In this document: in pieces, positions 25,048-50,548 of the stretch | Layout: the number at the start of each line of letters is the position of its first letter | Position numbering within the stretch: position 1 is the stretch's first letter | Origin: Arthrobacter agilis | GTDB lineage: Bacteria > Actinomycetota > Actinomycetes > Actinomycetales > Micrococcaceae | Direction: 5' to 3' | DNA: 64,000 nt | Assembly (NCBI RefSeq): GCF_006494655.1 | Contig: NZ_VHIM01000001.1 | Span: 1 to 64,000, forward strand | Position numbers and translations under genes: made by a program | Notes under the pieces: model-generated | Told to the model about the DNA's origin: nothing | What the model saw: only the letters and a program-made list of their open reading frames with translations | Databases searched by the model: none

Positions 25048-25079
25048 CGTGCTAGTGCTCGCGCTCGTGCTAGTGCTCG
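25048..25079. repeat. 18-bp direct repeat, about 1.8 copies
   Basis: CGTGCTAGTGCTCG occurs at 25048-25061 and 25066-25079 with an 18-bp period; a decayed third copy lies just upstream. It fills the gap between two converging genes, and the second copy supplies the pcp stop codon. Confidence 0.8.
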
Positions 25080-25708
25080 GCGCCCGCGGACACCCGCACA
25101 TCGACCGGCGTGCGGGCCGTCGTCGTCGCGATCGCGGCGAGCGCTGCGGCCATGTCCCCGACGGGCAGGCCCGGGGCGCCGTTCGCCTCGGCCTGCTCCG
25201 TCGAGTACGGGACGTGGACGAAGCCGCCCCGCGTCCCGCTGCGTCCCGCGAGACGGTGCATGAGCCCGTAGAAGAGGTGGTTGCAGACGTAGGTCCCGGC
25301 GGTCTGTGAGACCTCCACGGGGACGCCGAGCGCCGCCACGGCCTCGCGGCACGCCTTGATCGGCAGGGTCGAGAAGTAGGCGGCCGGACCGTCGGGCACC
25401 ACCGCGTCATCGACGGGCCGACGCCCCGCGTTGTCCGGGATACGGGCGTCGTCGATATTGATGGCGACACGCTCAACGGAGACGCGCTCGCGTCCGCCGG
25501 CCTGGCCCAGGCAGAGGACGACGTCGGGCCGGTGCCGGTCCATCGCGTCCGTCAGGACATCGACGCTGCGGCCGAAGACGCAGGGCACCTCGACCGCAGC
25601 GGCTTCCAGGCCCTGCGCGCGCAACAGAATCGTCGCCTGCTGCGCCGCGAGCCAGGACGGATTGGTCGTCTCTCCCCCGAAGGGTTCGAAACCGGTGAGG
25701 AGGATCAT
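25070..25708 (-). CDS. pcp: Pyroglutamyl-peptidase I
   Basis: Cytoplasmic cysteine peptidase (family C15, 212 aa) that removes N-terminal pyroglutamate. All three catalytic residues are seen: Glu in GQAGGRERVSVERVAIN (about 68-84), Cys in SQTAGTYVCNHLFY near 143, and His in FVHVPY near 167. ATG 25708 has TAGGCT six bases upstream, so the transcript may be leaderless. The C-terminal residues beyond the family core (about 200-212) are encoded partly by a short tandem repeat. Confidence 0.96.
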   Translation of the reverse strand: MILLTGFEPFGGETTNPSWLAAQQATILLRAQGLEAAAVEVPCVFGRSVDVLTDAMDRHRPDVVLCLGQAGGRERVSVERVAINIDDARIPDNAGRRPVDDAVVPDGPAAYFSTLPIKACREAVAALGVPVEVSQTAGTYVCNHLFYGLMHRLAGRSGTRGGFVHVPYSTEQAEANGAPGLPVGDMAAALAAIATTTARTPVDVRVSAGAEH

Positions 25709-25745
25709 GGGGCAAGCCTAGGCCAGCCGTCGGATGACAGCATAT

Positions 25746-25761
25746 TAGAACGCATGTTCTA
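25746..25761. promoter_or_regulatory. LexA (SOS) box before the radical SAM gene
   Basis: TAGAAC-GCAT-GTTCTA is a perfect palindrome around GAAC-N4-GTTC, the core of the Gram-positive and actinobacterial SOS box. It overlaps a TAATAC hexamer (25760-25765) that lies four bases before the start codon, so LexA binding would block this promoter. Confidence 0.75.
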
Positions 25762-25769
25762 ATACTGGT

Positions 25770-26837
25770 ATGCGGTGGGAGGGACAAAAAGTCACGGAAC
25801 AGGACGGCGGCGCCGTCGCCGAACCGAGCCTCCTGCCGCTCGTGGGTCTCGTCCGGACCGTGCGGACACCGGACTTCGCCGGGATCACCTTCCACGAGGT
25901 CGCCGCGAAGTCGGTGCTGAACAAGGTGCCGCCGACATCGTCCATGCCGTTCTCATGGACCATTAATCCCTTCCGGGGCTGCTCACATGCCTGCGTCTAC
26001 TGCTTCGCCCGCAAGACCCACAGCTACCTGAACCTGGACACGGGCCTGGACTTCGACGCCCAGCTCGTCGTCAAGATCAACGCCGCCGAGGTGCTCGCGC
26101 GGGAGCTCGCCAGGCCGTCCTGGAACCGCGACCACGTGGCGCTCGGCACGAACACCGACCCGTACCAGCGTGCCGAGGGCCGCTACCGCCTGATGCCCGG
26201 GATCATCGCGGCCCTCGCTGAATCGGGGACGCCGTTCTCCATCCTCACCAAGGGGACTCTGCTCGCGCGGGACATCCCGCTCCTCGCAGCAGCCTCGCAC
26301 TCCGTCTCGGTCGGCGTCGGTATCTCGCTCGCCCTGATGGACCCGATCCTCGCGGAATCCATCGAGCCCGGCACGCCCGCGCCGAAGGCGCGCCTCGCGC
26401 TGATCTCGCGGCTGCGCGAATCCGGGCTCCCCTGCGGCGTGATGGCGATGCCGATCCTGCCGTGGCTCACGGACGGCGACGAGTCCCTCGACCAGCTGTT
26501 CGGTGCGCTCGCCGCAGCCGGCGCGACCGGCGTGACCGCCGGCCCCCTGTACCTCAGGCCCGGCTCCCGGGAGTGGTTCATGCAGTGGCTGGGGACGCAC
26601 CACCCACGGCTCGTCCCGAAGTACGAGGCGCTCTACAGCAGCGGGAGCTATGCCTCGAAGGAGTACCGCGACTGGCTGGCCGGACGCATCCGGGTCTTCC
26701 GACGGAAGCACGGCCTCGAGGCCGGCGCGGGGTTCTTCCGGAATCTGACACCGACCGGCGTCCAGGCCCCAGCCGTCCGCGCAGCCTTCGACACCCGGTC
26801 ACCCACCCCGGTCACGGTTCAACCGGCACTCTTCTGA
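25770..26837 (+). CDS. Radical SAM protein, Rv2578c/SplB-like family
   Basis: Iron-sulfur enzyme of 355 aa. The radical SAM cluster ligands are the three cysteines of CSHACVYC near residues 71-78. LGTNTDPYQRAEGRYRLM near 130 is the conserved block of this family, which is related to spore photoproduct lyase. The C-terminal ~70 residues, with FMQWLGTHHP and YASKEYRDWL, match the mycobacterial-type subgroup. The reaction is unknown. Its SOS box and the lyase kinship suggest a role in DNA-damage recovery, as inference. The promoter lies so close to ATG 25770 that the mRNA should be leaderless or nearly so. Confidence 0.88.
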   Translation: MRWEGQKVTEQDGGAVAEPSLLPLVGLVRTVRTPDFAGITFHEVAAKSVLNKVPPTSSMPFSWTINPFRGCSHACVYCFARKTHSYLNLDTGLDFDAQLVVKINAAEVLARELARPSWNRDHVALGTNTDPYQRAEGRYRLMPGIIAALAESGTPFSILTKGTLLARDIPLLAAASHSVSVGVGISLALMDPILAESIEPGTPAPKARLALISRLRESGLPCGVMAMPILPWLTDGDESLDQLFGALAAAGATGVTAGPLYLRPGSREWFMQWLGTHHPRLVPKYEALYSSGSYASKEYRDWLAGRIRVFRRKHGLEAGAGFFRNLTPTGVQAPAVRAAFDTRSPTPVTVQPALF

Positions 26838-39500: not shown

Positions 39501-39516
39501 TCGAACATGTGTACTA
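39501..39516. promoter_or_regulatory. LexA-like box 1 (LysM side)
   Basis: TCGAAC-ATGT-GTACTA matches GAAC-N4-GTTC with one change. It is 43 bp from the LysM start codon and probably controls that gene. Confidence 0.6.
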
Positions 39517-39568: not shown

Positions 39569-39584
39569 TCGAACATATGTTTGA
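39569..39584. promoter_or_regulatory. LexA-like box 2 (lexA side)
   Basis: TCGAAC-ATAT-GTTTGA is a near-perfect palindrome with one change from the SOS consensus. It overlaps the -35 of lexA, giving negative autoregulation. Confidence 0.75.
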
Positions 39585-39609: not shown

Positions 39610-39770
39610 GGGCAGAACAGGGTATCGACGAGCGGGTCGGTCGCATCCGCGGAACCGCGCCGTCGAACACCCTCAGGCAACCATCCGCCACTGACACAAT
39701 GGCTTCCGGGTCCCCGGTGCCGCGGTCGACGGGCATGACAGGGCAAGCAGCTCCACGCGAAAGGCTCACA

Positions 39771-40571
39771 GTGACGGACTCACGACCGGCAGCACGGCAG
39801 GAATCGAACACCGCCCCGGCCGACGCCCCGCCCACTGCCACCGATCCCATGACCACCGTGCCCGCGGCGGCCGGACGCGGCAGGCCCCGGGGACGGTCGG
39901 TGTCGAAGGGACTGACGGCCCGTCAGCTGACGATCCTCGAGACGATCCAGCGGTCGATCGCCGACAACGGGTATCCGCCGTCCATGCGGGAGATCGGAGA
40001 TGCCGTGGGACTGGCGAGTCTCTCGAGCGTCACCCATCAGCTCGCGCAGCTGGAGCGGCTGGGATATGTGCGTCGGGACCCGAAACGACCGCGCGCCATG
40101 GAGGTCCTTCTGCCCCTGACGCTCGCACCCGATCCGACGGCGGACGACGACGCGTCGGCGGGCTCCCGCTCCGCGACCGAGCATCAGGGGCCCATCGACA
40201 CGGCGCTCGTGCCGCTGGTCGGCAGGATCGCGGCCGGCGGGCCTATCCTCGCCGACCAGGTGGTCGAGGATGTCATGCCGCTCCCCCGCCAGCTCGTCGG
40301 ACACGGCGACCTGTTCATGCTCAGGGTCTCGGGGGATTCGATGGTCGACGCGGCGATCTGCGACGGCGACTGGGTCGTGGTCCGCCGCCAGCAGAATGCC
40401 CAGAACGGTGATATCGTCGCCGCGCTTCTCGACGACGAAGCAACGGTCAAGACCTTCCGGCAGCGCGACGGACACACCTGGCTCCTTCCGCAGAACACGC
40501 GGTACGAGCCGATCCTCGGAGATCACGCGAGCATCATGGGCAAGGTCGTTTCCGTCATGCGAGCCCTGTAG
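39771..40571 (+). CDS. lexA: LexA repressor
   Basis: SOS master repressor, 266 aa. Residues ~47-115 are the winged helix ([39 protein letters not shown]). The rest is the S24-type self-cleavage domain: cleavage site Ala155-Gly156 in GRIAAGGP, catalytic Ser190 (SGDSM) and Lys227 (EATVKTF), 37 residues apart as in E. coli. GTG 39771 was chosen because GAAAGG stands six bases upstream. ATG 39699 would add 24 residues and lacks such a site. The first 45 residues are unstructured and longer than in E. coli. RecA, its co-protease, lies 9 kb away. Confidence 0.96.
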
Positions 40572-49504: not shown

Positions 49505-50548
49505 TTACTCGCCGCTGACGGCCTTGAGCTTGGGCGCCTCGGGCTCCTCGACCTGGACACCGATACCCAGCTTGACCCGGATCTTCTGCTCCAGCTCATC
49601 CGCGAGATCCGGGTTGTCGATCAGGAACTTCCGGGCGTTCTCCTTGCCCTGACCCAGCTGGTCGCCGTCGTAGGTGAACCAGGCACCGGACTTCTTGACC
49701 AGGGCGTTCTCCACGCCGACGTCGATCAGCCCGCCCTCGCGGGAGATGCCGTGACCGTAGAGGATGTCGAATTCGGCCTGCTTGAACGGCGGAGCCATCT
49801 TGTTCTTGACGATCTTCGCCCGTGTCCTGTTGCCCACGGGGTTGACGCCTTCCTTCAGCGTCTCGATGCGGCGGACGTCGATGCGGACCGACGCGTAGAA
49901 CTTCAGCGCCTTGCCACCCGTGGTGGTCTCGGGGCTGCCGAAGAACACACCGATCTTCTCCCGCAGCTGGTTGATGAAGATGGCCGTGGTCTTGGTCTGG
50001 CTGAGGCGTCCCGTGATCTTGCGGAGCGCCTGGCTCATGAGACGGGCCTGCAGGCCGACGTGGCTGTCGCCCATCTCGCCCTCGATCTCGGCACGCGGCA
50101 CGAGCGCCGCGACCGAGTCGATGACGACGATGTCGATGGAACCCGAGCCCACGAGCATGTCCATGATCTCCAGCGCCTGCTCGCCGGTGTCCGGCTGCGA
50201 GACGAGGAGCGCATCCGTGTCGACGCCGAGCCGCTTGGCGTACTCGGGGTCCAGGGCGTGCTCGGCATCGATGAAGGCGGCGATACCACCATTGCGCTGG
50301 GCGCTGGCGACGGCATGCAGGGCCACGGTGGTCTTGCCCGAGGACTCGGGCCCGTAGATCTCGACGACCCTGCCGCGGGGAAGTCCACCGATACCCAGCG
50401 CGGCGTCCAGGGCGATGGAGCTCGTGGAGATGGTCTCGATGGGCGCACGGGTCTCGTCGCCGAGCCGCATGATGGAGCCTTTGCCATACTGCTTGTCGAT
50501 CTGGGCGAGAGCTGCTTCAAGTGCTTTCTCGCGGTCTGGAGCGGCCAT
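49505..50548 (-). CDS. recA: Recombinase RecA
   Basis: Strand-exchange ATPase and LexA co-protease, 347 aa. Walker A GPESSGKT is at residues 66-73, the Walker B region VVIDSVAAL near 140, DNA loop L1 in [22 protein letters not shown] near 154, and loop L2 in [23 protein letters not shown] near 193. No intein is present, unlike some mycobacteria. ATG 50548 has GAGGTGAAG upstream. An SOS box lies about 140 bp upstream. The C-terminus ([13 protein letters not shown]) is acidic as usual. Confidence 0.98.

Follow-up and report, generated by a model that had tools for sequence, protein, structure and literature searches.

What does a radical SAM enzyme do when its gene is placed under the SOS response? 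This question is raised by a locus of Arthrobacter agilis, within a stretch of 64,000 nucleotides (hereafter the window), where a gene encoding a radical SAM protein of 355 amino acids (25770–26837, plus strand) starts just downstream of a palindrome that a first-pass annotation had read as an SOS box. The protein was called Rv2578c-like from the sequence alone, and its score now bears this out: it reaches 510 bits against the family model NF038135, above the curated cut-off of 430 and over model positions 1–316 of 317, and 49.9 bits against the Pfam model Radical_SAM (PF04055, cut-off 29.5). With 210.9 bits against NF033668, the model of the PA0069 family (cut-off 360), it is not a member of that family by model. 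The CX3CX2C iron-sulphur/AdoMet motif, CSHACVYC, occupies residues 71–78 (25980–26003, plus strand); C71, C75 and C78 are cysteine in 100% of 229 aligned sequences, a count that omits genes with inserts, and an N-terminal MRW is common to several relatives.

We found members above the NF038135 cut-off in 34 of 296 genomes sampled from the phylum and in 87 of 198 genomes of the order, the other 111 of these 198 giving no match over the cut-off; named relatives include Arthrobacter, Mycobacterium, Nocardia, Gordonia, Kribbella and Streptomyces. Two sets of relatives were used. S1 comprises 164 loci, 30 from the phylum survey, 28 new ones from the order survey and 106 that were fetched (52 from the phylum, 54 from the order), and takes in all 87 over-cut-off genomes of the order survey. 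Four matches of the phylum survey that exceed 280 bits but are truncated or broken (G287, G231, G117 and G269) were left aside, as were nearly all weaker ones; of the survey's about 17 PA0069-like matches, 13 were taken (L165–L177) and L178 was set aside. S2, made up of the 80 best of 598 stretches, is weighted towards close relatives, and the two sets overlap in places (L215 is the contig of L008). Twenty plasmid records were taken, among 60 of the 72 matches listed, and L270 was left out for a stop codon within its matched stretch. Phage or viral copies were limited to 8 of 50,697 phage records and two IMG/VR loci, all of them distant or cut by a contig end. An insert (match span above 1250 nt) is seen in 28 of the 164 S1 genes, for example L026, L036 and L057; the three that were checked match intein parts (Hint, Intein_splicing or LAGLIDADG), some below the Pfam cut-off, and these intein-like inserts begin near the iron-sulphur cysteines. 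Intein-containing Rv2578c members are already covered by an NCBIfam model.

The gene is dispensable. Loss of a Rv2578c-family gene, SVEN_6313 in Streptomyces venezuelae, is described as having no significant fitness effect in the Samy phage paper, whose authors termed a DNA-repair link of the gene speculative (PMC12924846), and Rv2578c is disrupted in an outbreak strain of M. tuberculosis (PMC3031603). Taken together, the phage insertion, the disrupted copy and the patchy distribution fit a conditional repair role without proving one.

The first-pass annotation had also related the protein to spore photoproduct lyase (SPL). As far as the fold is concerned this stands, SPL being the nearest solved fold (VIA Z 15.5–16.1 for six SPL entries), followed by the lipoyl synthase family (Z 13.8), and a profile of our 17-sequence alignment A1 finds SPL chains at E values of 0.0007–0.0014; the fold comparison used a predicted model in which the iron-sulphur loop is of low confidence. 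The catalytic cysteine, however, does not follow the fold. In SPL a second catalytic cysteine (C140/C141) is the hydrogen donor. The only invariant cysteines in the 229 sequences are the three of the cluster; C222 is found in 58%, and cysteine does not exceed 16% in any other well-filled column outside the cluster motif. The hydrogen-donor cysteine thus has no conserved counterpart, which makes spore photoproduct an unlikely substrate, and judging from these sequences the substrate is probably different from that of SPL. This comparison rests on the family alignment, without a residue-by-residue alignment to SPL. One could still suppose that the gene encodes a plain SPL orthologue for the repair, in dry or dormant cells, of the 5-thyminyl-5,6-dihydrothymine that UV produces, the box conferring UV inducibility and the C-terminal tail being unimportant. 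We consider this unlikely: the nearest fold, the profile matches and the annotation as SplB in several strains (PMC12924846) speak for it, but the absence of a conserved equivalent of C140, an identity of just 12–17% in the structural alignments and the conservation of the tail in the Rv2578c family all speak against it.

That tail, in our view, says more about function than the features noted in the first-pass annotation. The protein ends in QPALF (residues 351–355; 26820–26834, plus strand), a pentapeptide resembling β-clamp-binding motifs that the first-pass annotation did not mention. It follows a variable linker (residues 328–350; 26751–26819, plus strand) that is predicted to be disordered from AlphaFold pLDDT and the alignment. 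The pLDDT is below 50 for residues 328–355, as would be expected of a flexible, accessible tail; model confidence is also low at residues 1–26 and in the iron-sulphur loop (70–91). Q351 and L354 are each conserved in at least 90% of alignment A1. Published definitions of the β-clamp motif are Q-aliphatic-x-[L/M]-[F/L] or Q-aliphatic-x-[L/M]-x-[F/L] (PMC11139829) and a C-terminal QL(S/D)LF (PMC9690074); according to the former, a review, loss of the Gln weakens clamp binding.

Many relatives end in QLxLF, QLxLL or QLxLxL. The strict definition of the review is met by 65 of the 164 S1 tails and 31 of the 80 S2 tails (shuffle means 0.98 and 0.76), that is by under half of the family, and the QPALF of the window, with Pro at position 2, falls outside its aliphatic class. 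Allowing Pro at this position raises the counts to 92/164 and 50/80 (shuffle means 1.5 and 1.07). Wider classes (Q-containing or xxxLF), which are our own and broader than the published definition, take in 162/164 S1 and 80/80 S2 tails, while shuffled S1 tails remain unclassed in 157 of 164 cases on average. By class, S1 contains 94 pentapeptides, 18 hexapeptides, 22 looser Q forms, 28 xxxLF ends without Q and two unclassed tails, EQLSIP and EQLALP; S2 contains 58 pentapeptides, no hexapeptides, nine looser Q forms, 13 xxxLF ends without Q and no unclassed tail. The Gln is accordingly missing from 28/164 and 13/80 tails. Over the last five places of the 244 loci, position −5 is Q in 169, −2 is L in 208 and −1 is F or L in 190; Ala, Pro and Glu predominate at −12 to −8. 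The pentapeptide is exactly C-terminal in 139 of 152 cases. In six S1 loci where a terminal motif seems to be missing, EQMSLDLG or another hexapeptide form like it is followed by about 15–20 residues.

Controls were drawn from the relatives' own genes, 28 of 30 loci each being used for lipoyl synthase (LipA) and NucS after two weak ones were dropped, and 28 of 30 being readable for DinB. None of the 28 genes for LipA, another radical SAM enzyme, fell into any tail class; a looser pattern, L[FL] near the end, matched 12/28 of them through SLLAG-type ends and supports no claim. The clamp enhances the activity of NucS, which in Streptomyces has the C-terminal motif KLRLF (PMC11109965). NucS ends in xxLF in 28/28 (the xxxLF class) and satisfies the strict Q pattern in 0/28; as its tails have no Gln, its support is confined to the xxxLF class. 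In two relatives the DinB-like proteins show QPTLF and QQDLF beyond the catalytic region, so that Pro at position 2 is not foreign to the phylum, although this control is thin, only 4 of the 28 readable DinB-like tails containing the pattern Q..[LIM][FLWIM]. In mycobacteria, the motif QLPLWG of ImuB is needed for clamp foci (PMC10421592). In the literature searched we found no report of a clamp interaction, an enzymatic activity or a DNA substrate for any member of the family, and none of the titles and abstract beginnings among the matches listed joined SplB or the Rv2578c family to the sliding clamp. As far as that literature shows, the clamp-binding-like tail of the family is new.

Could the hydrophobic tail be something other than a clamp motif? 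If the SOS link is real, the tail might act as a C-degron through which the protein is removed after damage. A short lifetime is frequent among SOS proteins, and the pentapeptide is, as said, mostly placed at the very C-terminus. A degron would sit poorly, however, with the residues that follow the motif in QPSLFD, QLALFA, QLDLFAGIV and the EQMSLDLG tails with their 15–20 further residues, and in our judgement it would not be expected to begin with Gln. The hexapeptide form is also present, and penta- and hexapeptide are the two known forms of clamp ligands (PMC11139829). We therefore give the degron little weight.

The same kind of tail is found outside the Rv2578c family. The PA0069-like genes of the same phylum (L165–L177, which belong to another class of the phylum) all end in Q-P/A/Q-x-L-F/L followed by zero to three residues (13/13). 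In Pseudomonadota the PA0069-family tails read GDQLSLF, GQLDLF and similar, with GQLDLFAGIV in a Legionella relative. Nine loci on plasmids or secondary replicons (L262–L269 and L276) end in QLSLF, QLTMF, QLRLF, QLSLL, QYSLF, QGELF or QLSLGI. L265, L276 and L382 are annotated as PA0069 family; of seven unannotated loci that were scanned, six passed NF033668, and L264, from Gemmatimonadota, lies below both cut-offs. A relative in Acetoanaerobium, with scores far below both cut-offs, has EQLSFF at its end. The tail is absent from two haloarchaea, Paenibacillus, Runella and 3/3 proteins annotated as 'radical SAM mobile pair protein B'. An archaeal PCNA-box version of the tail was considered and was not seen in the two haloarchaeal relatives (L272 and L273).

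We now turn to the box. The 18-mer TTAGAACGCATGTTCTAA (25745–25762) is made of the arms TTAGAAC and GTTCTAA around GCAT, with the core GAAC-N4-GTTC at 25748–25759. Its arms are perfect inverted repeats of 7 bp that can be extended to 9 bp each, giving a predicted LexA operator, TATTAGAAC-GCAT-GTTCTAATA, at 25743–25764 (no strand assigned), supported by the sequence, by shuffles and by conservation in orthologues. It had been described as a perfect 18-base palindrome at 25745–25770. The box is real and the arms are perfect, but the central GCAT is not itself palindromic, so that the structure is 7+4+7, and the 18-mer stops at 25762, position 25770 being the first base of the ATG. The observation of a perfect SOS box is confirmed (0 mismatches to the 18-mer), as is its superiority to the boxes of lexA (39699–40571) and recA (49505–50548, minus strand), two genes identified here by family models: one core mismatch is present in each of the lexA sites GAACATGTGTAC and GAACATATGTTT and in the recA site GAACAGATATTC, and none in the radical SAM box. 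The two one-mismatch boxes upstream of lexA lie at 39501–39516 and 39569–39584.

The exact core occurs only once in the window. Shuffling yields 0.59 exact cores on average, with at least one in 48 of 100 shuffles, and the bare core is consequently not significant at this scale; the 18-mer is beyond chance, with 0 mismatches in the window versus 0.11 matches per shuffle even when three mismatches are allowed. Across the 3.24-Mb genome, TNGAACN4GTTCNA occurs seven times (reversed-pattern control, 0). The six other occurrences comprise one before ruvA-ruvB, four within genes that have Pfam domains and an unresolved one (L279). The ruvA-ruvB site, TAGAACGTATGTTCGA (G000:C47:4623-4638, L282), lies 51 nt before these genes and is the second promoter-like exact SOS box of the genome. 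A divergent gene for pyroglutamyl-peptidase I (25070–25708, minus strand) has its ATG, at 25708, about 35 bp from the box of the radical SAM gene, and LexA may therefore also affect its promoter.

The first-pass annotation had proposed to check whether the box is conserved before orthologues; we ran this check, and it is. With at most one core mismatch the box precedes 154 of 160 actinobacterial S1 loci, L115, L118, L123 and L161 having been excluded for less than 150 nt of upstream sequence; dinucleotide-shuffled upstream stretches give a mean of 13.65. The core is exact at 122/160 (shuffle mean 0.4). Gene interiors contain it in 16/160 cases with at most one mismatch and never exactly, and downstream stretches in 21/158, once exactly. 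The six S1 misses are L026, L029, L078, L106 and L107, with two mismatches, and L131, with three. For the 80 best named loci (S2) the upstream counts are 74 with at most one mismatch and 49 exact. Because S1 and S2 overlap and their members are related, the count over cluster representatives at 65% identity (n = 31) is safer: 30 have the core with at most one mismatch and 25 have it exactly.

The position of the box is conserved as well, and agrees with the earlier claim that it overlaps the promoter. A −35-like hexamer, ATGACA (25734–25739, plus strand), stands 18 bp before a −10-like hexamer, TCTAAT (25758–25763, plus strand), which is overlapped by the right arm of the box, so that the box sits in the spacer in a register that is constant in relatives. 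The N-terminal match is full at 189 loci, of which 178 carry the box no further than 110 nt away. In these 178 the hexamer overlapping the right arm is mostly TC[GT]A.T (sixth place T in 154, fourth place A in 155), and TTG is found at the place of a 17-bp spacer in 92, against 19 one base earlier and 3 one base later. A strict sigma-70 scan of the region reported no site, and TCTAAT lacks the A at position 2 of a −10; the promoter of the window gene is thus predicted by comparison only. The first in-frame start codon follows GTTC by 9–12 nt in 120 of the 178 loci, and in the window the ATG at 25770 begins 7 nt after the final T of the −10. As the start codon stands where transcription should begin, we infer that the mRNA is probably leaderless. 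By its position and conservation, the box before the radical SAM gene is, we submit, a LexA operator inside a promoter, pending direct evidence of binding at this site.

For a relative, LexA binding and induction are in print. In S. venezuelae, vnz_31145, a 'Radical SAM protein', was enriched in LexA ChIP-seq and rose 19.97-fold with mitomycin C, its box being given as TCGACCGTTCGCTC at −61 (PMC9380542, Table 1); the main text of that article makes no mention of a clamp. The printed box has no dyad. We searched 392 Streptomyces genomes for this 14-mer within 16 nt of GAAC-N4-GTTC and found it in six, directly before a Rv2578c-family gene in 6/6, on which ground we assign vnz_31145 to the family. 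The dyad beside the 14-mer is no independent result, as the search pattern required it. In these six loci (L343–L348) a proper GAAC-N4-GTTC dyad lies a few bases off, and the printed box may be out of register; we conclude that the likely operator of vnz_31145 is the neighbouring dyad rather than the printed 14-mer. In L348 the 14-mer is about 25–38 nt upstream of the conserved start, and its distance is similarly short in the other five genomes, versus the published −61, a mismatch that a different annotated start could explain.

As to a DNA-damage link of the family, which the first-pass annotation had put forward as uncharacterised, SOS control is supported by the conserved box and its place in the promoter but is not new. 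Rv2578c itself is said to be among the LexA-regulated genes of M. tuberculosis (reportedly in Davis 2002 and Smollett 2012); our literature search found no paper pairing Rv2578c with LexA. SOS control has been published for SplB-like genes of alpha- and beta-Proteobacteria (PMC3323433) and of Bacteroidetes (PMC8565304), and SplB-like genes have been associated with other repair genes (PMC3765255). We infer that the SOS-regulated splB genes described in alpha- and beta-Proteobacteria are PA0069 members. An alpha-type LexA box, GTTC-N7-GTTC, is present within 450 nt upstream of the matched stretch in 7/7 alphaproteobacterial loci (shuffle mean 0.035), and the Aeromonas locus has CTGTATATATAAACA upstream. 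None of the LexA patterns sought was found at the Gemmatimonadota and Legionella loci, and the actinobacterial-type box precedes 0/13 of the PA0069-like genes of the phylum. From these comparisons, the tail appears as a mark of the PA0069/Rv2578c branch, in which SOS-type boxes recur with different LexA patterns.

A further alternative is that the enzyme modifies a target other than DNA, such as a tRNA, a nucleotide or a protein, its SOS control meeting a general stress need. Lipoyl synthase, NifB and RlmN are radical SAM enzymes with a similar fold, and we found no known substrate for the family; yet SOS-type boxes in two sister families of different phyla, together with the clamp-like tail, point to DNA, and we find a non-DNA target improbable. 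A chance palindrome before a gene that LexA does not control can be set aside as an explanation, for although the bare core is expected 0.59 times in the window, conservation in 154 of 160 orthologues, the fixed promoter register and the published LexA ChIP and RNA-seq data for a relative (PMC9380542) reject it.

With SOS control and a clamp-like tail in the same gene, the best reading is that the clamp brings this radical SAM enzyme to damaged DNA. We propose, with a probability of about 0.72, that the gene encodes a LexA-repressed, SOS-induced SplB-like radical SAM protein of the Rv2578c/PA0069 type that acts there; clamp binding, DNA as the substrate and direct reversal or modification of a lesion are inferred. 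LexA bound to the box would cover the spacer and the −10 and block RNA polymerase. RecA would trigger LexA cleavage and the gene would be transcribed, probably as a leaderless mRNA. The product, a predicted radical SAM barrel followed by a disordered tail ending in a putative β-sliding-clamp-binding motif, would be brought by this tail to clamps that remain at stalled forks, in gaps or at repair patches, and there its 5'-deoxyadenosyl radical may act on a damaged base or cross-link.

A wider proposal, which we advance tentatively and at somewhat less than even odds, is that Rv2578c and PA0069 together form an unrecognised, widespread class of replisome-linked repair proteins: SOS-induced, clamp-tethered radical SAM enzymes that reverse or remodel a lesion, other than spore photoproduct, at forks or gaps in growing cells, the tether being older than the local LexA box or independent of it. 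To our knowledge, direct-reversal DNA repair by radical SAM chemistry is known only for SPL in spores. If the proposal is true, a new repair activity would exist in growing cells of mycobacteria, streptomycetes, rhizobia and others. Such an activity could also explain why a 'SplB' gene is found in several SOS regulons, and the clamp tail would offer a concrete route to finding the lesion acted on.

The protein can be set beside several known systems. SplB has a radical SAM barrel like that of the window protein, but the identity is low and the family lacks a further invariant cysteine; we know of no clamp motif or clamp use for SPL. The NF038135 model, 317 positions long, ends before the tail motif, and the name of the family gives no biochemical function. 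The PA0069 family (NF033668) is the sister of the Rv2578c family, and the C-terminal motif is common to both. NucS/EndoMS and ImuB, clamp-bound repair factors of Actinobacteria, are different proteins with which the likeness is one of working only, and it is their clamp-binding motifs that the putative motif of the tail resembles.
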